From NCBI GenBank assembly GCA_012295275.1, contig CM022674.1, positions 10,492,292 to 10,556,291 of the forward strand: 64,000 nucleotides of DNA. Direction: 5' to 3'. The stretch comes from Chrysomallon squamiferum. Its lineage: Eukaryota; Mollusca; Gastropoda; Neomphalida; Peltospiridae. Every line of letters starts with the position of its first letter. The first letter of the stretch is position 1. The notes under the pieces are model-generated. The model made no database searches. It saw only the letters and a program-made list of their open reading frames with translations, and had not been told where the DNA came from. The position numbers were made by a program, and so were the translations under genes. Shown one piece after another: positions 6-63,649 of this stretch.

Positions 6-572
6 TTGCCCAAGTGCGGCCACTGTCAGAAATGGGGGCACATCACAAACCAGTGCTCCCACAGAAACAACCAGAAACATTTAACATGCAGTTTCTGTGG
101 TGGAAATCACCACAGAAACTCAGGCCAATGCCGGTCTCTGGCAAAATGCGCAAATTGCCAGGGACCACACGAATCGCACTACAAGATGTGCCCAGCAAAG
201 ATGCAAGCAAACAACAAATTCGAACACAACAGAAGAGACAACAAAATTATACAAAACGTCAACAAGAAATGCCAGAAAATAGAAGAAAAAACCAAAACCA
301 TCATAGAAACAAAAATTAAACAACAGAACGACAAACCAAAAGACAATCTCGACAAGGAGGTCAGGATTGCAGAAATACACAAAATCATTGTCTGCCTCCT
401 GATTGAGCTTCAGAACATCAGGACCAACAAAGGAAACACGAATGATGAAGCCAATTTGGAGCAGACAGTAGCCCACATAATTGAAGACAGCTTGGGCTTC
501 AAAATCGACACGCAGGACAAAAGACTAAAATTACACACAGACAGGAGAAATCCTACAAGCACAAAACAGTGA
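6..572 (+). CDS. LINE ORF1, gag-like nucleic-acid-binding protein with three CCHC zinc knuckles (5' end uncertain)
   Basis: The frame contains three zinc knuckles near its start: CGHCQKWGHITNQC (about residues 4-17), CSFCGGNHHRNSGQC (28-42) and CANCQGPHESHYKMC (48-62), each with Cys-Cys-His-Cys spacing. After them comes a Lys/Asn/Gln-rich, probably disordered stretch and a short helical C-terminus. ORF1 proteins of this type bind element RNA and act as chaperones in the ribonucleoprotein. The first Met is at base 6 but the true start may lie upstream of the window, since an RRM-like or leader part commonly precedes the knuckles. It ends at TGA 570-572, inside the ORF2 frame, which is open from 485 onward. 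Confidence 0.85.
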   Translation: MPKCGHCQKWGHITNQCSHRNNQKHLTCSFCGGNHHRNSGQCRSLAKCANCQGPHESHYKMCPAKMQANNKFEHNRRDNKIIQNVNKKCQKIEEKTKTIIETKIKQQNDKPKDNLDKEVRIAEIHKIIVCLLIELQNIRTNKGNTNDEANLEQTVAHIIEDSLGFKIDTQDKRLKLHTDRRNPTSTKQ

Positions 573-3500
573 ACAAAAACAAAACAAAAACAAACAGTAA
601 CAACCATTTACAAACTCTTCACGACAAGCACGCCAAGAACACAGGTCTCTCCGTCCTTCAATGGAACGCCAAAGGCCTTCACTCAACAGGCCACGGAGAC
701 GAACTACTACACTTCCTGGCCTCCACTACAAACACACCGGACATAATATGCATTCAAGAAACATGGCTGGGACATCACAACAAAAACAACAAAACAACAA
801 AAACCTTTACGATCCCCGGGTACCAAAGTCATTACGTCAACAGATACAACAGCACCCGGGGAGGCATCATGACTCTCGTCAAACAAGACGTTCCACACAC
901 CAAGCTGAACGAAGCCAAAGTTCACGCCAACATCGAAATACTCAGCATCACAATACACAACAACAATCAAAACATCGACATCATTAACATATACAGCCCA
1001 CCCACTCCCGCACTACACACCATTCAAACCCAAGATTTAAATAAAATAATCACAACAAACAACAAGGTCATTATAGTGGGCGATTTCAACTGTCACAACA
1101 CCCTATGGGGTGGCTCGACAGACGACAGCCCTGGAATCGTCCTCGAAGATTTCCTGGAACAAAACCAGCTGGTCTGTTTGAACGACGGAACATTCACATA
1201 CACTAGCGACATCAATGGTGGCCAAACCGCCATTGATGTAACATTCACAAGCAAGGACATCGCAGCACTCTCCGAATGGCAAGTGCTCGATGAGCTAAAC
1301 AGCGACCACCACCCGATACGCACCAACTACAACAGCAAGAACACCTTCTCGGACAGATCCATCTTCACACCGAAATGGAACTTCAACAAAGCAGACTGGG
1401 AAGGCTTCTACACAGCATGCAGAAACATCAAATCGCAGAACTCCAACGACATCGACGCCTACTGCGCATCACTCACCAACACGATACACGCCACTGCAAT
1501 CAGATACATACCCAAAACCAGAAAATGCACCGGCAAAATATCCACTCCCTGGTGGACGGAACGCATAGAAAACAAATGCAAGGAGAGAAACAAATACAGA
1601 AGACAATATAAAAAAGACAGAAATCATTCTACGCACGAAAAATACACAATATCAAAAAAAGAAGTTTCCAACCTAATACTCACAGCGAAACAAGAACACT
1701 GGGAACTTTTTTGCAACAACATCAACCACAAAACATCAGTCAAAGACATGTGGGCCAAAGTAAAAAACATTCAAGGAAAAAAAACCCACAGAATTAACAC
1801 TCTCGGCAAAAGCAACATCGCATTCACTGACAAGCAAAAAGCGGACCTACTCAGCCAAACCTTCGCCAAGTCCAGCAGCAATTCGAACTTCCCACTGAAG
1901 TTCGCAAAGAAACAACTGGACAACCAAGCAATCGGCGAACAGTCCGCAGACACAGAAAACAGAACATATAATCAACTATTTAACATCAGTGAATTAAAAT
2001 ATGCACTCAAAAACAAGAAAAGTACAGCCACGGGGCCAGATAAAATAAGTTAAACAATATTACAACATCTACCAGACGAAACCCTACTGGTTATACTCGA
2101 ACTTTACAACACAATATGGACAACCGGCAAGATTCCAACAAACTGGAAACACGCCGAATGTTTCAGCTTGCCCAAACCACACAAAGATCACTCACTACCC
2201 AACAGCTACAGGCCGATCACGCTGACGTCACATATGTGTAAAACTTTCGAAACAATGATTAACACACGCCTAAACCAGCATTTAAACGACAACAATTTAA
2301 TCAGCAAATTTCAAAGCGGCTTCAGGAAGAAACACAGCACTAACGACCAGATCACACGCCTGCATACATCAATTAATCAATCTTTTCGAAAATCAAAAAA
2401 AGTTATAGCAGTATTTTTAGACATAGAAAAAGCATTCGACATGGTATGGAGGGAAGGACTGTTAATTAAATTAATAAATAACAACATTAAAGGCAACATG
2501 TTCAACTTCATCAAAGACTTTATCAACAACAGATCCATAGCAGTCAAAGTAAACGGTCACACCTCAGAGAAAACGACAATCGAAAACGGCATCCCCCACA
2601 CTCGCCCACACTCTTCAACATCTACATCAACGACATCGTCACAGCACTCGACCGACAAGACAACGACAGAAATCCGCCAAAGGAGCCGATAAACACAGCA
2701 CTCTTTGCAGACGACTGCGCCTTTTGGCGGGCAGGAAGATCGACCGCAGCAATACAGAAACAAATACAAAAAGACTTAAACAACATAAACGATTGGGCGT
2801 TGAAATGGGGCATAAAGATTTCTCTCTCGAAAACGACGTGCCTCCTTTTCAACAAGAAATCAGACAACAGTAAGATCACTCTCAACATCGACAACAACTT
2901 CATAACACAAACAAAGACATTCAAATTTCTAGGTGTGACATTCGACAGTCAACTCAACTTCCGATGCCACATATATAACATAATTGCCTCCTGCAAAAAA
3001 ACAATCAATCTTCTCAAGTTAATTTCTGGAACCAGTTGGGGAGCAAACGAGTCAACGCTGATTTTGATACACAAAGCATGTATTCTCTCCAAGCTCGACT
3101 ACGGAGCCACGGCTTACTCGAATGCTCCCAAACTTTATTTTTAAAAAACTAGATATAATCCAATCAAGTGCCCTCAGGGTGATCGGCCACCTGCCAAACT
3201 CAACACCATCCGACAGCCTCCTGTCGGAATACAGCATCCAACCATTAAAATACAGAAGAAAACTGCAGCTACTAAAATACAACCTGAAAATACACACACT
3301 CAACACAGACCACCCGGTCAAGGATCTGGTCCCCGACGAACAAAGGATAGGACAACTCTTCAAATCGCATAGTCTACTACTATCGAATTTCCCGACAACA
3401 GCTAGCGAAATCGAAAGGGAAACAGGAATAGGTGAAATGCCACTGCCGGCATACCACAAAGAAAGAAAACCAACAATCAACACACCTTTCCTGATCAAAA

Positions 3501-4454
3501 GAGAAACTGACAAAACAGAGATCCAACCATTCAAAAAAATCATTTTTTTTGGCAGCAGCAAACGACCACTACAAACAACACACGCACATCTACACTGACG
3601 GATCCAAAAACCCAGACAACGGGAGAGTAGGATTCGCCTTCATAGCTCAAAATCACACAAACAAACCCACATGCATACAATTCGGCCGTATCAGAAATCA
3701 CCTTTCGGTATACACGGCCGAGTTGGTAGCCATCATCAGAGCCATGCTGTGGGTAAAACGCAACAACAACAAACACACAGTCATTTTCTCGGACAGTCTA
3801 AGTTCCGTGATCTCAATACAATCCGGAAGTTCAAGCAGACCAGACCTGCTCAGCAAAATACAACAACTACACGAAGAAATACAACACAACAATAAAGAAG
3901 TAACCATCGAGTGGCTCCCAGCACACGTCGGCATCCTCGGCAACGAACTTGCCGACCATTACGCCAAAGAGTCACTCACCATTAAAGACGAAGACATCTG
4001 CACAGACATACATTACGGAATAAACGAAATAGTCTCCATCGCTGCCAAACATTACGACAAACAATGGCAGAACGAATGGAACAACACGAAAAACAAATGG
4101 CACTTAAACATCAAACCACTCGCCAAAACACCCAAAATCACACTCGCCAACAAACTACACAACAACAACCTCACCAAAGTCAGAATTGGTTACTCAAACA
4201 ACTTAAACGCAATTCTATACAAACATAATATCATCACATCACCCAACTGCAGTTGCGGACTCTCAGAAACCATGAAACACTACTTGTTTCACTGTCCAAA
4301 CTTTGCCAAGGAAAGACAAGCACTACGCAATACATTGGAGGAACTAAAAATCGAGTTCACGCTCCAACACATCCTGGCACCAAACGTGAAAGACAGAGAG
4401 TTAGTCCTCGCTGCAGTAACAAATTACATTCTCAAAACAAAACACAAACTATAA
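485..4454 (+). pseudogene. LINE ORF2: endonuclease, reverse transcriptase and RNase H, disrupted
   Basis: In order: an endonuclease/exonuclease/phosphatase domain (about 620-1340; IICIQETWL, VGDFNCHNTLWGG, DELNSDHHPI), a reverse transcriptase (about 2000-3200; AVFLDIEKAFDMVW and catalytic LFADDCAFW near 2701), an RNase H (about 3585-3960; IYTDGSKNP, TAELVAI, FSDSLSSV, WLPAHVGILGNELADHYA) and a C-terminal Cys/His knuckle (CSCGLSETMKHYLFHC). Lesions: in-frame TAA at 2051-2053; a short deletion near 2590-2601 that removes the conserved PQGSVLSP turn and shifts frame; one extra T in the T5 run at 3138-3142; one extra T in the T8 run at 3543-3550. No ATG precedes the endonuclease in this frame; the first in-frame initiator-like codon after the overlap is GTG 569. 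Confidence 0.92.
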
Positions 4455-5275: not shown

Positions 5276-5925
5276 TCCAGTGTCCAGTTACAACGCATTT
5301 GGCTGTCCAGCACTAAACACTTCGGAACTCGGCTGATCTCACTTTCATTTTTATATTTAGACTGGACCCCATTACTCCCAGACTGCATTCCCCAAAGTAT
5401 TTATATAGCAAAATGCCCACGGTTAAAATCTCGATAAAGCTGGGATCGATCCTTATAATCTACCGCTATCAGGAGAAAGTTTCAAGTACCAGTAATAGTT
5501 CTCGTTTTTATATTATCATAAATTTATCTTTATCCAGAAAACGAATTAAAATAAAATAATTCAGCAACATTTGCTTACATAAATTTAAATTTAACAACTC
5601 TTTCCAAAGATAACAATTATATAACTAAATTTAACAAGGGTTATAAATTTACATTTAGCAATTGTTTCAAAATTAGTAGTTTATAAATCTATATGAAATA
5701 AATGCTAAAAGAAATAAACAGTTCAGATATTTTCTTTCTATTTTTTTTTTTTTTTTTTTAATGAAATTGTCTTAAGTATTTTGATTAAACAAAATATTCC
5801 TGTAAATTGGAATAGTGTTTCGTTTTTTATTTTTATTTCATTTCTCAAGTTAATAATTTAGGCTAGCACTATTGTATCGTTTCAACTAATAACCATGTTT
5901 TAATTTAAAAAAGACGACTGTAGAC
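5276..5925. other. AT-rich intergenic sequence
   Basis: No coding frame with protein-like composition and no RNA gene is visible. It contains a T tract at 5741-5759 and low-complexity AT. Confidence 0.6.
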
Positions 5926-6660
5926 TTTTCATTACAGTTTTAGTTCAAAACAGAAGTTGTTGGAATTTTCATGACAGTTTTAATTCAAATCCGAAGATAC
6001 TCTAATTTTCTTTACAGTTTTATTTCAAAACAGAAGATACTCGAATTTTCGACACAGCTTTAGGTCAAAACAGCATATGGTGGAATTTTCCTTACAGTTT
6101 TAGTTCTAACGTGAAGATGAACGAATGTCCATTATAATTTTAGTTCAGAAAAGGATATGGTGGAATTTTCAGTAGTTTGAATTCAAAACAGAAATAGGTC
6201 GAATTGTCATAACAGTTTTCGTTCAAAATTGAAGGTGGTCGAATTTTCTTTAGAGATTTAGTCCGAAACAGGAGATTGTGAAATTTTCATTACATTTTTA
6301 GTTCAAAACAGAAGACGGTCATTTTTGTAATTACAGATATAGCTTTAGTCAGAAGACAGACAAATGTTCCTAAACTATTTGTTCAAAACACAAGATGGTT
6401 GAATTTGTATTACTGTTTCAATTTATAACAGAAGATGTTCAAATTCTCAATCATGTTTTAGTTCAAAACCGATGATGGTCGAATTGTCATTACCGTTTCA
6501 ATTTATGACAGAAGATGTTCAAATTCTCAATCCTGTTTTAGTTCAAAACCGATGATGGTCGAATTGTCATTACAGTTTCAATTTATAACAGAAGATGTTC
6601 AAATTCTCAATCCTGATTTAGTTCAAAACAGAAGATGGACGAATTTTCATTACAGTTTTC
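5926..6660. repeat. 40-bp satellite, about 18 copies, homologous to the end of the fibrinogen-domain exon
   Basis: Units follow the consensus tagttcaaaacagaagatgg then tcgaattttcattacagttt, at about 40-bp spacing (starts near 5936, 5977, 6017, 6057 and so on to 6615). Read on the minus strand each unit spells approximately KTVMKIRPSSVLN followed by TAA, which is the C-terminus of the neighbouring fibrinogen-related exon (6618-6862). The array therefore arose by tandem amplification of coding sequence, with the true exon as its right-most unit. Exon-proximal copies alternate between two types (A-B-A-B from about 6415 to 6615), giving an 80-bp higher-order period. Distal copies are more diverged. 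Confidence 0.9.
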
Positions 6661-6862
6661 TTCAGTGAATAGTAATAGCCTCTCCATGGCGACCAGTTGA
6701 TTCCAACACCAAATAAATGATTGGTTCCATTGAGGTACAGACCGTTCAGATTGGCCGAATGACAGCTATTGTACCACCAACCTCCCTCATTATTGTCCTT
6801 TGTAGAGAATCTCATACCATTGTGACGAATGTTATCTGCTACAGTGTTGATCAGGGCATCGC
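6618..6862 (-). CDS. Terminal exon of a fibrinogen-related domain (FReD) protein
   Basis: A minus-strand exon preceded by a TAG acceptor (6863-6865) reads GDALINTVADNIRHNGMRFS, then STKDN, WWYNSCHSANLNGLYLNG, a SPWRGYYYSLK segment, MKIRP and a stop at 6618. These are hallmark residues of the C-terminal part of fibrinogen-like domains (ficolins, tenascins, molluscan FREPs), secreted lectin-like recognition proteins. Compared with the family, the segment between STKDN and GGWWYN is short: the usual acidic calcium-loop continuation and the NCA cysteine are missing, so the usual C-x-C disulfide partner of NSC is absent. No upstream FReD exons are recognised in the window. The stop codon end is duplicated in the adjacent satellite. 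Confidence 0.85.
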
Positions 6863-7059
6863 CTACAAGTAAACATTCTATAGAATCACATTCGTGTCAG
6901 TCAGTTTTTCAACATATAACAGCAGCAACAACGACTACGACTTTTCTCTAAACGTAATTCTTAATACCAGCTTAATGTTTCTGTGAGTAAACCGGATTTG
7001 TAATAAATATTCCTAAATAAGTATATTGTTGTATTTGCATATATAAGTATAGATACATA

Positions 7060-8670: not shown

Positions 8671-9145
8671 GCACCGTGATATAGGGTTAGGGTTAGAATT
8701 TGAGTTAGGATTGTTTAAATTTTATTATAAATATTATGATAAACTGCAAAATAATTTGAGTGTCACGATTGGAAGTAGCGTTAGGGTAAGATTTAAAGTT
8801 GGGAACCTCGGTAGGATTAGGTTCAGAAGTTGAGCTAGGGATGGGGTTAGGTTTAATGTTAGGTTTAGGGTTAGGGTGTGGATTAGTGTTAGTGTTAGGG
8901 TTAGTGTTAGGGTAAGGGTTTGGATTAGTGTTAGGGATAGGTTTGGGTTAGGGTTAGGTTTGGGTTAGGGTTAGGGTTAGCGTTAAAGCTAGGGTTATTT
9001 AAATTTTATTGTGAGTGTTATGATAAAGTGCAATGTAATTTGAGGTTACGATTGTAAGTGACGTTAGAATAAGAATTAACATGGCGGACTTGGGTAGGAT
9101 TAGGTTTAGAAGTTTATCTAGGGTTAGGCTTAGGGTTATTTAAAT
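8671..9145. repeat. Degenerate TTAGGG-like interstitial telomeric array inside a roughly 285-bp duplication
   Basis: Interrupted runs of ttaggg, ttagggttag and variants (ttagtg, gttagga, gttaaa) fill about 8683-8995 and recur at 8820-8835 and 9120-9140. Two flanking blocks of about 125 bp are homologous: 8714-8836 and 8997-9122 share tttaaattttatt, atgataaa, gtgcaa, cacgattg/tacgattg, gacgttag and taggattaggtt. So the telomere-like core sits between copies of a longer unit. Confidence 0.8.
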
Positions 9146-10887: not shown

Positions 10888-11263
10888 AAGTATATCTCAC
10901 TTTGATAAATTTGATGATAATGACGTCTTCGAAACGAGTGGGTGGTATTACCAAGATGATCTTCCAGAACAGGAACAATTTGACAGGAAAATCACAGCAG
11001 ATACAATACAAGATTTAGAAGAGAAACCACTTAATTTGAAAGTTAAACTAGATCTAAAACAGGTAGCAAGGTAAAAACAACTTGATGTCAAAATGAAAAG
11101 AGTTCCGTCTCAAAAACAGCAGAAACAGCTTGATGGGAAGAGGAAAGCTTATCCAGTACAAGATGCACAGAAGAAAAAACTTGGCGTGAAAATTACAGCA
11201 GATCGAGCACGAATTTCACAATCTGTTATTCACAAGAACAATTACATGTAAAAGTGAAAGCAA

Positions 11264-11560
11264 ATCCACATCTTATTTCACAGCAGAAACAACTTGACGT
11301 CCAAGTCAAAGCAGATACAGTACAAGTTTCACAGCAGAAACAACTTGATGTAAAAGTGAAAGCAGATCCAGTACAAGTTTCACAGCAGAAACAACTTGAT
11401 GTCAAAGTGAAAGCAGACCCAGTACAAGTTTCACAGCAGAATCAACTTGACGTCAAAGTGAAAGCAGACCCAGTACAAGTTTCACAGCAGAATCAACTTG
11501 ACGTCAAAGTGAAAGCAGATACAGTACAAGTTTCACAGAAGAAACAACTTGATGTGAATG
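11264..11560 (+). repeat. 54-bp coding minisatellite (18-residue units) at the PARP N-terminus
   Basis: About five to six units read VSQQKQLDVKVKADPVQ with small changes (Q/N, P/T, K/Q). Diverged units extend upstream to about 11070 (KQLDVKMK, KKLGVKITAD), and it is in these older units that the stop and the frameshift lie. The charged, Gln/Lys/Asp-rich repeat precedes the first WWE domain and is probably disordered. Confidence 0.85.
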
Positions 11561-14157: not shown

Positions 14158-15127
14158 TAAGACAAATGCAATGTCGATGAACAGGGATGATGAAGGAGAT
14201 ATTAACGAAAGATTTCTCTTTCATGGAACCAGTGATGACGTCAGTGTCATACGTGGAATCTGCCACAACAACATCGATTTCAGACTGAACGGCAAACATG
14301 GAACATCGTACGGAAAGGGAGCTTATTTTGCGCGGGATGCCAAATACAGCCACTGCTACGCCACAGGATCACATTGCTTCATGTTCATTTCAAAGGTTCT
14401 TATAGGACAGTATGCTAAAGGTAAAAGTTCATATCGTCGGCCTCCTTCTAGGAAAGGACATTTTCTTTATGATTCCTGTGTCGATGATGCAAATAATCCA
14501 TCAATTTTTGTAATCTTTGACACTTCTCAGAGTTACCCACTGTTTCTACTTCAATACTCTGTGGAGACCAGATCAGAATTGCCTTCATCAAGCTCCTCAG
14601 TACCTGTTTCACAGTCGATTACTCCTACCATAAATTCTCAAATGCAGACTTCAGTTAGCAGCACAACCAATAATTCCAACACAACACCAAAAATTCACAC
14701 TTCTACTTCTACAGTAAATACTTTGAAGACAACACCAATATTTCACAGTTCTACTTCTACAGCCAATACTTCCAACACAACACCAAAAATTCACAGTTCT
14801 ACTTCTACAGCCAATACTTCAAACACAAAACCAATATTTCACAGTTCTACTTCTACAACCAATACTTCCAACACAACACCAATATTTCACAGTTCTACTT
14901 CTACAGCCAATACTTCCAACACAACACCAAAATTTGACAGTTCTACTTCTGCAGTAAAACTTCCAACACAACACCAAGATTTCACAGTTCTACTTCTACA
15001 GCCAATACTTCCAACATTACAACAAGATTTCACAGTTCTACTTCTGCAGTTAAACTTCCAACACAACACCAAATTCAAATTCTACAGTAAATACTTCCAA
15101 CACTTCACCAAGTTCAACTTCCACTGA
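14158..15127 (+). CDS. PARP gene: catalytic domain exon with Ser/Thr-rich repeat tail
   Basis: After a TTTTGCAG acceptor the frame reads DERF-like NERFLFHGTSDD, where His binds NAD, then YGKGAYFARDAKYSHCYA with the second catalytic Tyr. The third triad position falls in KVLIGQYAKG; it is not Glu, so mono- rather than poly-ADP-ribosylation is expected. RKGHFLYDSCVDD and SIFVIFDTSQSYPLFLLQY finish the fold in the manner of PARP7/11/12/14. The phase joins TGTAG|T from the previous exon. The domain is followed by a Ser/Thr/Asn tail of 16-residue repeats. Confidence 0.92.
14680..15110 (+). repeat. 48-bp coding minisatellite (16-residue Ser/Thr-rich units) at the PARP C-terminus
   Basis: Units read TTPIFHSSTSTANTSN with K/I and I/F changes. 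Near 14950 a gtaaatacttcc unit becomes gtaaaacttcc, losing one base, and the following copies are read in another frame until the stop at 15125-15127. About eight to nine copies in all. Confidence 0.88.
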
Positions 15128-16678: not shown

Positions 16679-18976
16679 CTATAATTTTATCTATGTGAAT
16701 GTTATGAATGTCCAATTATTTATAGATGTAATAAAGTGAACAAATGTTATGAATCACTATAGTTTTAACTATGCAGTAAAATAAACGATGAAGTAATTTA
16801 ACGATTTGTTCAGGTTATTTATTGATACAGACTATTCCATAATCGCTTATTGTACTTGAGGTTAGCGCGTATCAGTGATTTCTATATAAGAACAATAGAG
16901 TTCTGTATAAGAACAATAATACGGAGACATCCCGTGTTATTCAAGGTAAACGGCACGTTATTAGTAATGCGCTCAACCTTGTCTTGTATTGTTTAATGCG
17001 TCTGCGTTATGGGATCTCAGTCTTTTGGGAGGGCACCCACAGATTCACGAGTCAGTATGACACAAAGAATTACATTACACAGGTGTGTGCGTCAGTAGTA
17101 TATACAAAGAATTATATTACATGGGTGTTTGGGTCAGTAGGCTATATAAGTGAATACATTACAGGGTACAAAGGTCAGTACGATTTACAATGGATTATAT
17201 TACAGTGGTATATGGGTCTGTAGGGTTGACAAATATTTATATTACAGCGTTGAACATCTGAGCATATTTCTCAAAAACAATATTACAATCAGGCAAAATA
17301 CATTAAAGGAACAAGTTACATGAGACTGTGTTACAGATGCGTATGACTATTTTTTTCATTACATACTGAAGTTCATTGTTACATAGTGATTAGTATTATA
17401 AGGGCAATGTATAATTAATTATATTCCTGACGTTAAATGGATTATATGTGTACGCACACACACACACACACACACACACATACAAACAATTATTGATAAC
17501 TGAAAACTTCTTTTTTCTTGTTTGGTACAATTATTATGTAGGGAACAGGATTGTTGGTAAATTTAGACTCACTGACTATTCAGTTATTTTATATATTTAA
17601 ATGTCAGTCACTATCTTGCTTATCATATAAATGATTACTGCTTGACAGTCACATAATAAACAAAAGTTAGTTGGGCATAATTGCATGCAAGCTATATATG
17701 AAAATGAATATTACTCGTAGTCATGCAAAAAGAGTTATGTGAAAGATATCCATGCTTAAGAAAAGAAAAACAATGTTTTTATTTATATTTAATATTTCTC
17801 TTATTGCTATTGATTTATGTCTATGATCTTTTACCACTGTATTAAATAAATTCTTATTATAATTTTTATGATATAAAAAAGACATGTAACTTTACTGATC
17901 TAAAGGTTGATATATATCGATAAACAAACCGATTAGAAAGAAATATACATAGATACGGACAGACAGACAGACAGATCAGTGGTTGAAATGCTTTGCTGTT
18001 ATTATTTTTATTAGTGTTATTTTATTAGTACTAGTAATAAACAAGTCAATTAAATAGTATCTTTTATGCATTCATATTAACATATTGTATTATCTTTATT
18101 ACTCATAAACAATAAATAAACTTTACCGAATTGTTATATATATCTTATTTTATAACAATAGTTAATTACAGCACAATTTAACTATTTCATGAAGTTCAAT
18201 GTTTATGTCTTGTGTAATTTCCACACACAACAAATACTAACTCTAAGATATATAAATAGTTAACTACAAACTGCTTATTTCCTGTTCTAGATATCTCATA
18301 CGAAAATTGATTAATAAATACTTTTTCATCTAAGCAATTTATTTCTTTAAAAGAAGCATAAACAACCAGAAACAGTAACTGGAAAAGTGTAATGACCGAG
18401 TTCAAAGAAATTACATAAAGAGATGTTCAGAGAGAAAGAAAACAAAACTAAATCGCACACACTTTACAGCTTTAGTTTAGTTATTTCAGAAATGCAAAAA
18501 TAACAACGTTTGAAGCTGTACACATTTCATAGTTTAAATGTGATCTATGGCTACAGTATCAGGGACAGTTTCAAGTCACATCATACATTTATGAAAATTG
18601 CTAAATAATTTAGGATCTGAAATCTACATTATTTTTTGTTATTATAATGATTTTGTTTTTATTATTATTATTATTATTATTACCGGATATCAGTATTTAT
18701 TACAAAAGAGTCCCAAAAATATAGTCTACACTTTGCGTACATTTTGCATCACTCTCACCTAACGACTGAGTTCTGATCCTCATGTTATCAATATCGAGAG
18801 ATTTGAACACCTGGTGGTCATACGATTTGGGATCGGAGACCATCTTCAAAAACAGATTTCTCCGCAGCCGTGCTCTTTGTAGATTGCATCTCTGATTGTC
18901 GAATATCATCTCATTATCGAACTCGGGGAAAACCTCGTCTTCAGAATCACTCAAACTCTCTTCAAGAACTTCCTTC
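16679..18976. repeat. AT-rich spacer with a degenerate roughly 43-bp tandem repeat at 17040-17250
   Basis: Units carry gtcagta, a tataca/tgacac segment, aagaattatattaca and tgggtgt. At 16690-16770 there is a short duplication of tgaatgttatgaat / gataaagtgaa(c/t)aaatg that copies the end of the FLYWCH fragment. Also a (CA)n at 17454-17480. No gene is supported; the 18700-18976 part could be read as an extension of the decarboxylase tail in another frame. Confidence 0.6.
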
Positions 18977-28921: not shown

Positions 28922-30335
28922 TTCTCAGGTGTTTTTTTTTAGAACAGACATGAATACATTGATGTGGCTGCCATTCAGGCAGCTATCATGTAGAAGAATG
29001 TGGTTTATGACAGTTAAACAGTCAATGTGAGTGCTAACAACATATACCAATGTTTGCATCGCTATTGGTTTGTAATCATTGAAGTGTTCTCTTTGTATCT
29101 CACTCAATTGTTTCATACTAAAACGAAATATCTTTAATGATACACTGTTTATTATACTCTTGTCGTCAAATGATAACAATGATCTGCATGTGTGTAAATC
29201 TGTTACATTTATGTCATTTACAGGTTTCATTTCACAATTCTTAATTTCCAAACTATGAACTTCACAAAAACAAGAATCCATTTTCCAGTCTTTTCTGCCA
29301 CATATGAATTAAGCCTGTATGATGGTCCATCAAGTTCTGGCAGTCTTCACGTCATGTAATGTTATTTGGTTCGTTTCTTTGTTGTCTAACACTTCTACAG
29401 TCTGATACTACTAAGACTTCGGTCAAACCAGGTTCTGTTCACTGTTGTTACTTGCCTTCATGATATGTTTAGTGATTAAACTTAAACCCAGGTACTGTTC
29501 ACTGTTGTTACTTGCCTTCATGATATGTTTGCTGACTTCACTCAAACCCAGGTACTGTTCACTGTTGTTACTTGCCTTCATGATATGTTTGCTGATTTCA
29601 CTTAAACCCAGGTACTGTTCACTGTTGTTACTGGCCTTCATGATATGTTTAGAGACTTCCTGATTAGAAAATGCATTGACCTGAACAATGAAAAAATGTC
29701 AGAACATACATAATTTTCATTACATCCCTTGCCTGAATAATACTTTAAATGTAGTGTTTTATAGTTCTCAGCTATTGTAAGTGTAGCAAAAATACTCGTC
29801 TTAAATATATGGTTTAAATTCAAATATAAACGTTCACATGACCTGTAACATTGAAATTCTTTCACGTTTTTGTATTTTGTGCCAAATATATAATTTGATG
29901 TCATTTTCTGTTTCCTAGTTCAAAATATCCTGGAACTAGAAAAAAATGTTCTTACAGAGTTGAATGTCACGTTTTATACCTTTGAAACCACTGCTGAGGC
30001 ACCAAACATTAATAATAATGGCAGTTGTAAATAATGGCAGTTGTTTGTCTACTCTATGACAGAATAACATGTAACATGTATGTACGATTAAAGTTGTCAG
30101 TTGAAAAAGACAGATAATTATCATTACATGAAACAAACTGACCACAATGTTCAATAAGTGTGGTATTGTGACCTTGGTGACAGGAATCTCTTTGGTTTCA
30201 AACAAATTCTTCAGCTGATATATACTTTGTGCTTGTTCTATATTTTTACTCTGATCATTATTTTTCATGAACAAATTGTGAGGAACTTGAACATAATTTG
30301 AATTTGTTCTCATGTATTCACTCATCAAATAAAAA
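28922..30335 (-). pseudogene. Unidentified multi-fragment minus-strand gene with a 20-residue repeat
   Basis: Protein-like minus-strand frames: 30328-29936 (QSIYQLKNLFETKEIPVTK), 29904-29663 (TSNYIFGTKYKNVKEFQCYR), a candidate exon from 29659 behind CTAATCAG holding four copies of KASNNSEQYLGLSEVSKHIM, and 29295-28925 (CEVHSLEIKNCEMKPVND). The repeat exon and the 29281 frame are in the same reading frame but separated by several stops. The family is unknown; exon borders are uncertain, and the locus may be decayed. Confidence 0.4.
29423..29659 (-). repeat. 60-bp coding minisatellite, four units of 20 residues
   Basis: Near-identical units catgatatgtttgctgactt + cactcaaacccaggtactgt + tcactgttgttacttgcctt (plus strand) repeat four times. 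All units keep the minus-strand frame open, and 60 is divisible by three. Confidence 0.9.
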
Positions 30336-36306: not shown

Positions 36307-37430
36307 TCAAAATGTATTTATGTTACTATATTTAGCACCATGCTCCAGTAAATAGGAAACAATTTCCCTTCTGTAACTCTTAGCTTTGTCAAGAGGAGTT
36401 TCACCTAGACCATTTTTAACATTTACATCAACACCTTTTTTCAATCAGTGCTGTCACAATTTCTAGATTTCCATGTTCAACTGCTAAGTGCAAAACAGAA
36501 TTCTTATCATTGTCTGTTAAATTAGTGTCAGCTCCATGATTTAGTAAAGCCAAAGCTACTTTTTTCTTATCAGAGGAAATAGCTGGGTCTTCAAAAAAAT
36601 CAAATTTGTTGGGTGTGTATTTCAGAAATGTAATAAGAGGAGTTTCACTTTGCATGTCCTTACAATTTACATCAGCACCTTTTTCTATCAGTGCTGTCAC
36701 AATTTCTACATTTCCACCTTTAGCTGCTAAGTGTAAAAGAGAATTGTTATCACTGTCTGTTAAATGAGGATCACCTCCTTGGTTTAGTAAATATAAAGCT
36801 ATGTCTGGTCTGTGACAGATCAAGGATACATGAAGAGGAGTTTTCTGTTCAGTGTTAATTGCATTTATTATTTTTTTTCTTACTTCTTTCACAACATCTA
36901 TATCAATTTCAGAAGCTATGTGCAATGCTGAATTCTCGTGGTCATCTTTTATATTGATATCAGCACCATTTTCCAGTAACAACAAAGCTATTTCCTTTCT
37001 GTGTGTCACTGCGTTTACAGCTTCATGAAGTGGAGTTTTTCCCTTACTGTTTACTGCATTGACATCAGCATTTCTCTTTATTAGTGATTTTATCATATCT
37101 AAGTCACCACGCAGAACTGAGATGTGGAGGGGTGTGTCTGAAGGCAACAATTTGAAACTAATTTTGACACTTAACTGTTTGAGTTCAATTTCTTCTTCAA
37201 ACAACTGAATCAATTTCTGATTAACAGCTATATTCACATTAGGATCAGCTCCTTTATCAAGAAGACTCTGAACAACACCTGCACTGTTACACATCACTGC
37301 TGCTTTCAGTACTTTACTTTTCTTCCAGTTGTCATCTCTATCATTACACCTCTGCTCAATGAGAAAATTCACTGTATCACTGGCTCCCCATACTGCTGCT
37401 GCTAAAAGTACTTTATCTCTGTTCTCATCG
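36307..37430 (-). CDS. Ankyrin repeat array of the STAND-ankyrin gene
   Basis: Minus-strand units include VLLAAAVWGASDTVNFLI, LLDKGADPN, TPLHISVLRGDLDMIKSLI, TPLHEAVN, SALHIASEID, TPLHVSLICHRPDIALYLL, SLLHLAAKGGNVEIVTALI, ETPLITFLKYT, SVLHLAVEHGNLEIVTALI and ETPLDKAKSYRREIVSYLL. That is about ten units, two of them degenerate. The last repeat follows a +1 in a run of six A/T at 36436-36441; with one base fewer the frame continues as GVDVNVKNGLGETPL to a TGA at 36307-36309. Ankyrins here probably bind the ligand or partner. Confidence 0.9.
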
Positions 37431-38751
37431 ATTTAAACAATCAGGTTTCAGTTTTACTATTTCTTTTATAACACCAGAATTATTCTGACTAGCAGCAATA
37501 ATAGCAATGTCTTTCATTTTGTTTATTATATCAATGGTAACCAGTTTCTTGAATGGATGGCTTACATCAACAACTTCAAAAGTCTTTGACTTCCCAAAAT
37601 ACCAGTTTCTTGATTCACGTCTCAGTTGTCTATGGAACCTAACCAATAACAGTTTAATGGCTTTTTCCTTGATTACATTGTTGTGTTTCTCATGTTCTAT
37701 CTTTTCAGCTAACAGACATGCAATCTTCATATTACCTGAAAAAATAGAAGCAAGTAAGAGATGTGAACACTCATTCAAACTAATATTTCTTTTGCACTGT
37801 AACAGTTCTTTGAGTATGGCAGCACTGTCTGTTTTTGAAGAAATAGCTGCACGCAATGTATCAATTGTTGGAATAACACCTGATTTTAGCAACATTCTCA
37901 CAACATCTTCATCACCAAACAAACAAGAAATATTCAAAAGTTCTTTTTTCAGATTTGTTAATTTCATTTTACACAGATTTTCAGTGAAAAATCTTGACAA
38001 TATTCTTAATCCCTTCACAATACACTCACTTTGAACAGATGATGAAATTTCAAAATATTTTTCAGTATCCAAATACATGTAACTAGAACACTCTGAATAA
38101 CTGTCAAGAAGACATGAAATATTTAGCAATATTTCATCAAGATTGACTACTTTTACAGATGATATACACAAATATTTACTTTCATGTTTATGTAGTTGTC
38201 GATGCAGTATTTCAGACAATTTATCATTAAAGTATTTTGTCTCTATGAGATACTTCACAAACTCTTCATCTTTCAATGATGGATGAGAAATAATGTCTTT
38301 GGCATTGCTTGATGCCAACAGTTCACTAAATCTCCGAGCAAGAGCATCAAAGCAGTTAGGTTTCACAGTCATTGTAATGTGACTTTTGTTAGACACTCCA
38401 GGTGTCACAACATATTCTAACAACATGTAGACAGGACACATTTCTAACAATTCTGCTGCTTTCTTTGGAAACTGATGAAAACACCAGAAACAATGAGTCA
38501 AACACTGACTGGTGAATAAATGTGTATTCATTGTCAGAACACTTCAAATAGGTACCACACATTTCATCAGCTGTTTTCTTTACATCTGTGAGACAAGTGT
38601 TTTTCAGACTCAGACAGACTCCCTCTAGCAGTCTTATTAATGTCATTATGTCACTGTCAGAGTCATTTTTAAATGGGTCCAGTAAATCAATCCTGAGACT
38701 GTCTTGCTGGAACAATATCAGCAGTAGAACCAGGTAATTGATCTGTGAAGA
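37431..38751 (-). CDS. Linker region between NTPase and ankyrins (helical, STAND-associated)
   Basis: Minus strand, from LVLLLILFQQDSLRIDLLDP through YTFIHQSVFDSLFLVF (a conserved phrase in this protein type) and, after the +1 at 38478-38481, QFPKKAAELLEMCPVYMLLE, then several hundred helical residues with ankyrin-like pieces (NISCLFGDEDVVRMLLKSG). It ends at KLKPDCLN, where the frame shifts once more before ENRDKVLLAAAV. Predicted as the winged-helix/helical part that follows the NTPase core. Confidence 0.75.
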
Positions 38752-39458
38752 TTAATCATTTTTCAAATTTTCCAGTTGTTTTGTGAGATATTCTACAGGT
38801 TTCTCAAAAAACTTAACTCCTCTTTTTTGTGCATCACTTGAATTAACATAATACACACACACCTGAGGAAATCCTAACTCTGTACAAGAAGAGGAAATGA
38901 CACTGTCTTTATCATCTTCATCCATTGTAACATTCTTTTGTTCGAGATACTTGTTTAGAATTTCTAACTTCTCATAAGAATCCAGAGAACATACATTGCT
39001 CTGTAGGTCAAGGACATGGTTTTCATTGAACAGATCAAATTCCTTCAGATTGGCTTTAATTTCTGTAAATATTTGTTTTCTTAAAGTAATAATACATCTC
39101 ACACTCCCATCTTTAACAAGACTCCACACCTCTGGAAATAGCTGTTCCCAACATGACATAAAATCGAATACAAGATTAGTTTTACCAAATATATCATCAA
39201 TGAGAACAATACATGGTTTAACTTTAGACACAGGAATGTATTTGAAATCAGAGTGATGAGTCATGAGGTAAGAGTCTATTTTTTCTTCTTTCTCTATTTG
39301 TTTAATCATGTTCAGACCTAGAGTTGTCTTTCCTGAACCTGGACTTCCTACTACAATCACAACACCATTCTTTTTCAAAAGTGTTAGTCCTCTTTCTTCT
39401 GCTCTTGTTTCAACATAGACTCTCCTCTCAATTAAGTTTAACAGTGACCTGGTATACT
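38752..39458 (-). CDS. STAND P-loop NTPase domain (nSTAND3-like)
   Basis: Behind a GATACAG acceptor the minus strand reads SLLNLIERRVYVETRAEERG, VIVVGSPGSGKTTLGLNMI (Walker A), KPCIVLIDDIFGKTN (Walker B with the DD pair), a sensor-like VRCIITLRK and SSCTELGFPQVC. This order fits small STAND NTPases rather than classical NACHT with a GP-RAAL tail. The frame reaches TAA at 38754-38752 directly after QLENLKND; conserved sequence continues in the same frame after it. Confidence 0.88.
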
Positions 39459-39736
39459 CTGTATCACAACATTAAAACAAATAATATTTATTATTAACTT
39501 ATTTTAAATATATTTTATTATTTAAATATAGATACTATAATTTTTAACCAGTTATCATATGTGAAGTTTGTAAAATAAAGCAAAGTTTTTTTGTCATAAT
39601 TTTAGTTCATCAGAATTTAATGACAATACTATGATATAACAGTTTTAAATGATGTAAAAATAACAGTGATTATCTTCTTGTAAATTAACATTTTTCAGAA
39701 ATAAAAAACAAGAACAATAAAAAAAAAAAAAAATAC

Positions 39737-42532: not shown

Positions 42533-42973
42533 CAGAACTGCTTGACACAGGTAGTTGTAAATGATGCTCTGTATGTGTGATGTCAAAGGAAGACTGAGAT
42601 GTGATGCCAGAGAGAGATACACTTTTCATATTGTCTAAGAGAGACACAGCTGTCACAGTCTCTGCCGAAGAAACAGCTGTCACAGTCTCTTCAGAAGAAA
42701 CAGCTGTCACAGTCTCTGCCGAAGAAACAGCTGTCACAGTCTCTTCAGAAGAAACAGCTGTCACAGTCTCTGCAGAAGAAACAGCTGTCAGTCTCTGCAG
42801 AAGAAACAGCTGTTACAGTCTCTTCAGAAGAAACAGCTGCCACAGTCTCTGCAGAAGAAACAGCTGTTACAGTCTCTTCAGAAGAAACAGCTGTCACAGT
42901 CTCTGCAGAAGAAACAGCTGTTGTGTTAGAAGAATCTTCTGAACTCTCATTTTTGTCATCTATATTCCCTGAG
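42533..42973 (-). CDS. N-terminal repeat exon of the STAND-ankyrin gene
   Basis: Starts GNIDDKNESSEDSSNTTAVS after a TTTACAG acceptor joined to MEKNKSKM of exon 1, then decapeptide repeats SSAETVTAV/SSEETVTAV, and ends SVSLSGITSQSSFDIT and LQLPVSSSSG before a GTAATA donor. Acidic, Ser/Thr-rich and disordered. One 30-bp unit near 42787-42795 lacks two bases, breaking the frame; restoring the unit length would give 147 codons. Confidence 0.7.
42622..42925 (-). repeat. 30-bp coding minisatellite, about ten units
   Basis: Consensus (plus) gaaacagctgtcacagtctc + tgcagaagaa or ttcagaagaa, in alternating types, giving a 60-bp super-repeat. One copy is two bases short. Confidence 0.9.
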
Positions 42974-59120: not shown

Positions 59121-62100
59121 AACAATATCTAAAAATTATAATATCCAGATTCTTTTTCAAACATATTTTTTGTAAATAAATGTCCTTGTGTTATACATTT
59201 TATATAATAATGTTCTTTTTCTGATGTAAAATATTATAAAATAAAAATTCATTTCAGATCCAGTAATTCTATTTCTGTGAATTATAAGCTGTCTCAGGGA
59301 GAAATCATTTTTTCAAATATGAGAAAGGATCAGAAGATCACAGTTCCTAAAATTACCTCACCCGGTGCTGTGCTGAACTTCAGCCTGTCACCACTCAGTG
59401 ATAAAGATCTCATACAGCTGGATGTTAGTGTTGGGGTCACTCTAGTGGCCAGATTATCAGTGCCCAGATCAACATATAGGCCGGTCATTCAAGAGGATGC
59501 TCTGGCTCAAATCACTGACACCATATCAACAAAATTTGAAGTTTCTATACAGTCTGCTCAGTTTGTGGTATTTATTTTATTTTATTTTATTTTTTGTATT
59601 TGTTTATTTGATGTTTTGTTAACTTTTTCTTTTAAATGAATTTTCTTTTTTCAGTTTTATTAATTATATTTTATTTTAATTTTATATCTTTTTCTGAAAT
59701 GTATTTATTTAGTTAGTTAGTTATTATTTGCTTATGTGATCCAATCATCTGTTCATTTATATTTCTCTGACTTTCTCTTTACTCACTTGTGTATCTTGCT
59801 TTACCTATCAGTCCGTCTGTCTCTCTCACTACCTATATACCTATCTTTTTACCTTATTAACAGTTATTGTCATGATTAATGTTAAATATGTCTGTTTACC
59901 TGTCTGTTTACCTGTCTGTTTACCTATCTGTTCATGCATCTTTCTGCAGCAGATTTTCTGATAGTTTTGTAGAAATTAAATACATTTTAGAAGTTCAAAG
60001 TTAATTTATTTATTTGTTAATTTATTTTATTTATTGTTTTTAAAATGTTGACAGTTTATTAAGTTCAATTTATTTATTCTATTTTTAAGAAAAAAATAGT
60101 TTAACGTTTTTATTCATACAAGGCAACATTTTGAAAATCTTGCTCTTTAATTTACTTTAATCCATTTAATGAATGAGTTATGACTTTTTAATATAATTTT
60201 TTTTAAGGGTACTGCAATCAAAATTGAACCTGGAATGCGACTAGAGGCACTAGATCTGCTGAATCCTAGCTTAATATGTGCTGCTTCTGTTGGTATGGGT
60301 TTTTCCACAGCTTTTCCAAATCTAGCAAGTGCTCAATGCTTTATCAAATGCTGTGCTATCATTAGGAATATGCATCCTCCAACAGCAATTGGCTTTAATA
60401 ATTAGTTTCATTATTAGAAAAGGTATCATTAAAACAAAAAGTGTAATGTACAGTCACAATTTTTTGAAATTATTTCATACTGGCTATACAATATTTATAT
60501 AATAATTTTTATAATTTATCAGAATTATATATTTCTTTATATAACTATAAACTGTCAGAATTGTGAGAAAATATTTCTGTGATGATAATGTGCTTTGTGT
60601 ATATTTTAAATTAATGCTTTATTCTCATCAGAATCAATTGATGAGTCAACTGGACAATGGCTGATTCATTTTGATGGGTGGACCAACCGTTACGACTACA
60701 CTGCCGAGCCCACTGCTCCCCATCTCCACCCACTCGGGTACATGGAAGCTACAGGTCACAAGTACAAACAGTACAACTCCAAACTTCAAGCTCCACATGG
60801 TGAGTTACTGTTATATTTATCACAGAGGGATGTAAGATCTATAAGTATTGTCTGAGTGTTAGCTTGTGTTATTGTGTGTTTAGAATAATAAGTAGAATGG
60901 TCATATTTGTTGTATTCTGTGATAATCATATCTGAATGAGCTCAGTGTTTATTGATTACTCACATTACCATAGTTTTAATGAATTTTGTTTACAGCAAGA
61001 ATATGTTTTATTTTTTCAGGCTATGACAAGAAATTTAGCTGGCCACAGTATCTTAAAGAGGTTAAAGCACAACCAGTCCCTTGGGAACATTTTACAGAAG
61101 TAATATTTCTATCTCTTTATTGTACTTACTTGTTTATAAACTTCTTCAGATAATTCTTTATGATATATTTACTAAAATATAACTTGTTGGAATTATTTTT
61201 GTAATGGATCAGTACTTTTGTCTGTGGCTATAATTATAAAAATAACCAAACAAACCATCTAATTGGCAAACTATTAATAATAATAATAAAATATTCTTAG
61301 GAATTTTTAAACAGGTTTTTATTTATTCACTGTAGGAACAAAAAGATGGTACTCCACCAGATGAAACTATAAAAACCCAGGAAAGTCTAGGGATATTTTA
61401 TGACTTGACTCTCTCAACATCCAGTTACTGTCCAACAAACAAATACCGTGGAGCAGGTATACTAGATCAGAAACCTTGTGTGTGTGTATTTATCAATATC
61501 GTATATATAAAAACAATGTATTTTTCAAACATAGCTTTGATTATTTTTTCCTTTAAATGTATACTTTATTATTTTTATTTTGTTAATATAATTTTTTCCA
61601 AGATAAACACAGTTATGTTTTTGCTAGGGATATCTTCTGTAATTTATTTTTGTGAGCAGTTATCAGATTTAAGTTCTGTTAATAAAATGTTTTTGAATCT
61701 TGGTCCACATATGCATTTATGGTTTTATTTACCTCTTAGATATATTATTTTGTTAGCCTTCATTGTTATAATATTAATTTTAGAAATATATAAATACAAA
61801 AAATACTTCAGATTTAGAGAAATATATAAAACTAAAAGTTTTTGAATTTTGGAGAAGTATATAAAACAAATGATATTTCAGTTTTGGAGAAGTGTATAAA
61901 ACTAAAATATTTCAGTTTTGGAGCAGTATATAAAACAAAAATATTTCAGGTTTAGAGAAGTACATAAAACTAAATTATTTCAGCTTTGGAGCAGTATATA
62001 AGCACTAAAATATTTCAGCTTTGGAGAAGTATATAAAACTTAATATTTCAGGTTTGGAGAAGTACATAAAACTAAAATATTTCACCACTGGAAAAGTATA

Positions 62101-63649
62101 TACAATTAAAATATTTCAGCTTTGGAGAAGTATATCAAACTAAATATATTTCAGGTTTGGAGAAGTATATAAAACTAAAATATTCCAGCTTTGGAGAAGT
62201 ATATAAAACTAAAATATTCCAGCTTTGGAGAAGTATATAAAACTAAAATATTTCAGCTTTGGAGAAGTATATAAAACTAAAATATTCCAGCTTTGGAGAA
62301 GTATATAAAACTAAAATATTTCAGCTTTGGAGAAGTACATAAAACTAAAATATTCCAGCTTTGGAGAAGTATATAAAACTAAAATATTTCAGCATTGGAA
62401 AAGTAGATATAATTCAAATATTTCAGCTTTGGATAGGTATATAAAACTAAAATATTTCAGCTTTGGAGAAGTATATAAAACTAAAATATTTCAGCTTTGG
62501 AGAAGTATATAAAACTAAAATATTTCAGCTTTGGAGAAGTATATAAAACTAAAATATTTCAGCTTTGGAGAAGTATATAAAACTAATATATTTCAGCTTT
62601 GGAGAAGTATGTAAAACTGAAGCTGGCTTACACAACCAGTGATGGAGGAGAAGAGCTAAACAGATTTCTGAAAGACAGTGCCTGCATAGTGTGTCTGTTA
62701 CCAGCCCAGCTGGACGTCACCTACCTCAGATACCCTGCTCTGTCAGCCATGTTCAATCCCAAGATGCAACAGCTTCATTTAGTTTGTCCTGGATACAGTA
62801 AGTGTAAATAAAAAGTTGTTAACAGACATTAAAACTGTTTTGCATTGGGTTTTCTTTGCCATTTCCATAGAGATTAAAATGAATTCACAGAGCTTTTGGT
62901 AGAATGAGAAATAGCCCTCTTGGTGCACTGAGTATGATTGCTCCTGTAAGACTTGAATTTGGCCAGTGAGTTATATTAGAACTATATATAGTGACATAAT
63001 GAGTTACATTAACATTCTATATAGTGATATAATGAATTATATTAGAATTCTATGTAGTGACGTAATGAATTATATTAGAATTCTGTGTAGTGACATAATG
63101 AGTTATATTAGAATTCTACATAGTGACACAGTTGTAGTATAATTCTCTTACAAGTTGTGACATTACATAGTGAATACTACAGCATGATTTTATTTAATTA
63201 CCACTACATTTGTCTGTCATTAAAGCGGTAATACCGTTATTTAATTCATAGCTTAGATAAATATATAGCTTATTAATTTTCAGATCATGACTTCCACTTA
63301 GTAGATGACAAAGGAATAAATTTTGCAGAGATTTTCAAATCTTTTTCTGGCATAGAAGATGTGATGCCTTTGTTTCTCCAAGCACTCTATTTTCAGGAGG
63401 TTGTTATTATTATTATTTCTGTTTTGGTTACTGTTACTGTAATTGTTATTTTTAAAAAATTTATCATTATTATTATTTTTATTATTCTTATTATTATTTT
63501 ATTGTTACATGCATTATTGTTTCAATTATTATTGTTGTTGTTGTTTTGTTGTTTTTCTTATTTTTATCATTATATTTTGTTATTATTTTATTACTACATA
63601 TTATTATTATTATAATTATTATTGTAATTATAATTATTATTATTATTAC

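Follow-up and report, generated by a model that had tools for sequence, protein, structure and literature searches.

A 40-bp minisatellite behind the stop codon of a fibrinogen-domain exon in Chrysomallon squamiferum probably descends from the coding end of that exon

Introduction

In a 64-kb stretch of the Chrysomallon squamiferum genome (64,000 nucleotides of contig CM022674.1, here called the window), a 40-bp tandem repeat adjoins an exon that encodes part of a fibrinogen domain, and the repeat units resemble the end of that exon. Such an arrangement raises the question of which came first: did a coding sequence give rise to the repeat, or did a repeat supply the end of a coding sequence? 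Gene-derived repeats are known, Stellate being one example, and minisatellites have units of roughly 10–100 bp. Their arrays range from about 0.5 kb to several kb in one account (PMC2820488). Here we set out the structure of the array, the evidence on the direction of descent, the later divergence of the copies and a possible route by which the array was born.

Results

The fibrinogen-domain exon

The exon lies on the minus strand at positions 6618–6862 and is the terminal exon of a fibrinogen-domain gene, encoding the 3′ third of Fibrinogen_C and ending in KKTVMKIRPSSVLN and a TAA stop codon. Its match to PF00147 (E 1.6e-17; 64.5 bits against a gathering cut-off of 22) covers positions 133–221 of the 221-position profile, the 3′ part only. 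Among PDB entries it matches 68 distinct sequences, the best being FIBCD1, and it is alike to FIBCD1, MFAP4 and the ficolins. A TAG directly upstream, at 6863–6865, reads as an acceptor-like sequence and suggests a splice site at the start of the exon.

A C-terminal pair of Cys residues with a loop between them is typical of the Fibrinogen_C domain. Pair and loop are seen in all four relatives that we fetched (P0001–P0004, which are one of two and three of five candidates from protein searches, two of them shark fibrinogen-like 1 proteins) and are not found in the exon: some 12 residues of the domain, present in all four relatives, are missing from it, the first Cys of the pair included. A family consensus used as query detected no convincing further fibrinogen exon in the 64-kb window; besides the present one it returned two matches, of 14 and 16 residues, both at chance level (E 1.6 and 3.6). 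Molluscan FREPs and other named fibrinogen-related classes are told apart by their N-terminal domain architecture and by organism. Very long introns may separate the upstream exons from this one; alternatively, it may be an orphan, either a pseudogene fragment or a piece that moved here together with the array, with the rest of the parent gene elsewhere. We regard the orphan reading as possible but rather unlikely. The missing residues, the missing Cys and the lack of a convincing partner in the window speak for it. Against it, the reading frame of the exon is uninterrupted, an acceptor-like site precedes it and, compared with the array, it has barely changed; long introns could account for the absent upstream exons. 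An orphan exon is in any case compatible with seeding of the array by the exon, and this reading concerns only the present status of the exon.

Extent and structure of the array

Tandem Repeats Finder (TRF) reports a head-to-tail array on the minus strand at 5897–6659, with a period of 40, 19.1 copies and a score of 554. Wrap-around parsing resolves 19 units that start at 6657 and end at 5900, with 3 bases left over, so that array and seed together occupy 5897–6657. Unit 1 (6618–6657) is the last 40 bp of the coding sequence, stop codon included, and is the only coding unit; the other 18 units, at 5897–6617, all lie behind the stop codon. The preliminary description had counted about 18 units of 40 bp adjoining a fibrinogen exon, and the array and the count both hold, although the range that it gave, 5926–6862, mixes the exon (6618–6862) with the array (5897–6617).

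Two types of unit alternate next to the exon. Units 2–6 (6418–6617) follow the order B-A-B-A-B, with three B units 95% alike, two A units 97% alike and only 67% identity between A and B, which bears out the 80-bp higher-order pattern first described there. Units 7–19 (5900–6417) are older, more diverged 40-bp units, among them the degenerate unit 8 (6339–6377), which differs from the exon at 17 positions.

The repeat is confined to this one place in the window. A search with the 40-mer, which has two ambiguous positions, gave three matches at up to 3 mismatches, namely the exon end and two array units, whereas 100 shuffles gave 0.00 on average. We rejected further copies elsewhere in the 64-kb window, where no ungapped match to the consensus outside the array exceeds 24/40, and we rejected additional units past 5897, where the flank aligns to the units with a score no better than that of its own shuffles. 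On the exon side the homology breaks off abruptly within the exon: local alignments with the array stop at 6657–6664, a single one reaching 6664, and the exon upstream of the seed (6658–6866) matches only itself and one 12-bp chance match in the window.

With 19 head-to-tail units of 40 bp, or 0.76 kb in all, the array is a minisatellite. Satellite DNA consists of long, highly repetitive arrays, and a single 0.76-kb array of this repeat in a 64-kb window does not demonstrate a satellite.

Coding potential of the units

The preliminary description held that the units spell the C terminus of the exon plus a stop, and this is true in part. Read singly in the frame of the exon, 2 of the 18 array units (u3 and u5, both KTVMTIRPSSVLN followed by a stop) keep the peptide but for one residue, and many others retain parts of it, but u2, u4, u6 and u14 have a stop within the peptide. 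None of the six frames across 5897–6617 is stop-free, the best having 9 stops, and on this ground we rejected the array as a coding extension or a set of alternative exons. Substitutions relative to the consensus fall evenly over codon positions 1, 2 and 3 (47/232, 47/234 and 44/251), so the array copies vary as non-coding DNA would and carry no coding signature.

The array might nevertheless serve the gene, either by storing donor copies for C-terminal conversion or as a regulatory repeat in the 3′ untranslated region (UTR). It adjoins the stop codon and may indeed lie in a 3′ UTR: two AATAAA hexamers resembling polyadenylation signals occur just beyond it on the minus strand (5826–5837) and a third inside it (first base 6024), all in AT-rich sequence, where they may be chance occurrences. 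The nearly whole peptides of u3 and u5 would also suit a donor store. However, 16 of the 18 array units are more than one residue away from the peptide, substitutions are spread along the unit with no protected core (0–7 of 18 units changed per position), and the exon bears no sign of having been overwritten. We consider a service to the gene very improbable, and nothing indicates a function for the array.

Direction of descent

Several lines of evidence bear on whether the exon or the array is the older. First, a consensus built from the 18 non-exon units is identical to the exon end except at one position (39/40), as is one built from units 9–19 alone. The sole difference is synonymous, CGT in the exon and CGA in the consensus, both arginine; two array units out of 18, u8 and u14, share the T of the exon, and this T may be the ancestral state.

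Second, we placed the 19 units in an unrooted maximum-likelihood tree (HKY model), in which 6 of the 16 labelled nodes have support no higher than 49. The exon sits at a central node on a branch of approximately zero. End branches measure 0.08–0.51 for the 13 units that lie outside the recent block; inside the block they are short, and the stems measure 0.27 (B) and 0.08 (A).

Third, the encoded motif occurs in distant relatives. The domain closes with TVMKIRPS in the two shark fibrinogen-like 1 proteins among the four fetched relatives, and the motif therefore predates the array; FIBCD1 shares MKIRP within SEMKIRP. The earlier claim that MKIRP is a conserved family motif stands for these proteins, but the other two relatives have only variants, P0001 ending in TEIKIRRLQ and P0002 in TKMMMRRN.

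The reverse order, in which a pre-existing 40-bp minisatellite or dispersed satellite supplied the C-terminal codons and the stop as an exonised repeat, would also produce a close match, since a fresh copy of an array unit should resemble the consensus, and 39/40 alone does not settle the direction. Moreover, the four fetched relatives do not conserve the SSVLN tail that follows MKIRP. Against this, an array-first origin needs a unit that by chance encodes TVMKIRPS, a motif shared by two shark proteins, in the right frame and at the end of the domain, a coincidence that seems very unlikely; it must also accommodate the lack of copies elsewhere in the 64-kb window and the abrupt end of the homology inside the exon. 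We judge it improbable. The consensus match, the zero exon branch, the even variation over codon positions and the presence of the motif in distant fibrinogen-domain proteins lead us to regard the exon as the parent. Descent from exon to array is thus well supported, and on this central point the preliminary description is upheld.

Divergence of the copies and conservation of the exon

Of their 40 positions, array units depart from the consensus at 7.8 on average (median 7), and they differ from the exon by about 20%. With such divergence the array, taken as a whole, is not fresh; most copies look old and decayed. Only the B-A-B-A-B block was amplified recently, so the label of a fresh satellite is wrong for most of the array.

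An outward growth from the exon, with distal units more diverged, had also been proposed, and the data go against it. Differences from the exon amount to 12/40 in the B units, the highest value after the 17 of unit 8, even though B units adjoin the exon, and fall to only 5 in the second-last unit, u18. Unit number and differences from the exon show no significant rank correlation with all units (Spearman's rho −0.13, p = 0.60, n = 18) or without the three B units (rho 0.30, p = 0.28, n = 15), and we rejected a gradient of divergence with distance.

The exon copy stands apart from this decay. Counting related units once, which leaves 15 independent lineages, the chance of finding 1 or fewer differences in 40 at the rate of the array is 0.019 with rates drawn from the units and 0.005 with the mean rate excluding unit 8; fixed rates of 15 to 25% give 0.012 to 0.0001, and the chance of zero differences at the rate of the array is 0.003. 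By rank, the exon is the lowest of 16 lineages (1/16 = 0.06), and its slow rate is only modestly significant. The pattern suggests that selection held the exon copy while the array copies decayed. Lasting selection would sit awkwardly with an exon that may be a relic, lacking residues and a Cys and having no convincing second exon in the window.

Birth junction and proposed mechanism

The two ends of the array share a 5-bp microhomology. At the exon junction the sequence reads GAAG-AAAAC-TGTAATG into unit 1, with AAAAC at 6655–6659, and at the distal junction AATT-AAAAC-ATGG into the flank, with AAAAC at 5897–5901 on the same minus strand. This match is measured on the present-day array rather than on an array-free ancestor; at least 5 bp of such homology occurs at 2.5% of 20,000 random 40-bp offsets in the window, and the distal AAC could belong to a partial twentieth unit. 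In the model of Haber and Louis (1998), as reported in PMC6947457, minisatellites are born by slippage or unequal exchange where repeats of 5–10 bp flank a motif. AAAAC at both array ends fits that model, as direct repeats at its lower length limit and at a chance of about 0.025.

We infer the following course. The seed would be the last 40 bp of the coding sequence of a fibrinogen-domain gene, stop codon included. The first tandem duplication probably arose by replication slippage or unequal exchange between two AAAAC copies of 5 bp flanking these 40 bp, and would have left a spare copy behind the stop codon. With translation ending at the first stop, no coding constraint would act on later copies, and a period indivisible by 3 would do no harm. 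The array would then have grown by unequal exchange and decayed by point mutation, with a small later burst of the 80-bp B-A period next to the exon, while the exon copy remained almost unchanged, most simply through selection. We consider seeding by the coding end, followed by AAAAC-mediated slippage or exchange and then unequal exchange, very likely to be the best explanation of the locus.

Other features of the window

Minisatellites of 51 bp (10962–11552), 48 bp (14663–15121), 27 bp (42642–42921) and 60 bp (29428–29651) each have a stop-free frame. Across the ten arrays that we examined, a stop-free frame is present in five of the six with a period divisible by 3, the exception being a 42-bp array at 17062–17247, and in none of the four with other periods. 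A PARP catalytic domain precedes the 48-bp array within one open frame, and related copies of the 51-bp array extend upstream as far as 10962. A 34-bp array (61782–62618; 24.5 copies, 88% matches) has no open frame, and nothing similar to it occurs elsewhere in the window at E 1e-3.

The window also holds a non-LTR-like retroelement (485–4451), whose endonuclease and reverse transcriptase domains are split across several open frames; a TAGGGT repeat (8836–8997; 27.3 copies, 70% matches), perhaps a decayed interstitial array of telomere type; and, on the minus strand at 36431–39471, open frames that encode an nSTAND3 NTPase domain and ankyrin repeats and may represent an NLR-like gene.

Discussion

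The locus shares features with three kinds of known repeat. Like the Haber–Louis minisatellites, as described in PMC6947457, it has a 40-bp unit of unique origin, 5-bp flanking sequences and, by our reading, later growth through homology between units. It differs from them in that the seed is coding and includes a stop codon, and in that the parent copy has stayed in place beside the array, almost unchanged. With the in-frame coding minisatellites of the same window (51, 48, 60 and 27 bp) it has in common a tandem amplification in or beside an open frame; their periods are divisible by 3 and they have at least one stop-free frame, whereas the fibrinogen array has a 40-bp period, lies after a stop and has none. 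In the available portions of two reviews (PMC5615363 and PMC6947457), satellite DNAs are derived from transposable elements or rDNA spacers, and it is to these that tandem repeats of known parentage go back. The present array resembles such satellites in being a tandem repeat with a traceable parent; unlike theirs, that parent is the end of a protein-coding exon, and one short local array is what is seen. Among the matches listed for a few terms in the open-licence literature, we found no report of this locus or of a minisatellite seeded by a fibrinogen exon, which is weak evidence of absence.

The mechanism is a known and ordinary one, and the value of the locus is that of an unusually clear example and a test case, not of a new principle. 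Since the parent, the end of a coding exon, is still joined to the array and has changed very little, the direction of descent, the birth junction and the later evolution can be read from one locus. A stop codon would make coding DNA a safe seed, in that everything behind it escapes constraint at once.

More tentatively, the array may act as a local neutral clock, in which a selected coding end lies beside unselected tandem copies of itself, with the parent central in the tree of units. The decay of about 20% in the copies, against the nearly unchanged exon, might then measure directly, at a single locus of a single genome, both the constraint on the last 13 codons and the turnover of the minisatellite since its birth. 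If the same repeat has been seeded independently at the ends of other fibrinogen genes, an AAAAC-flanked coding end would be a recurrent site of minisatellite birth.
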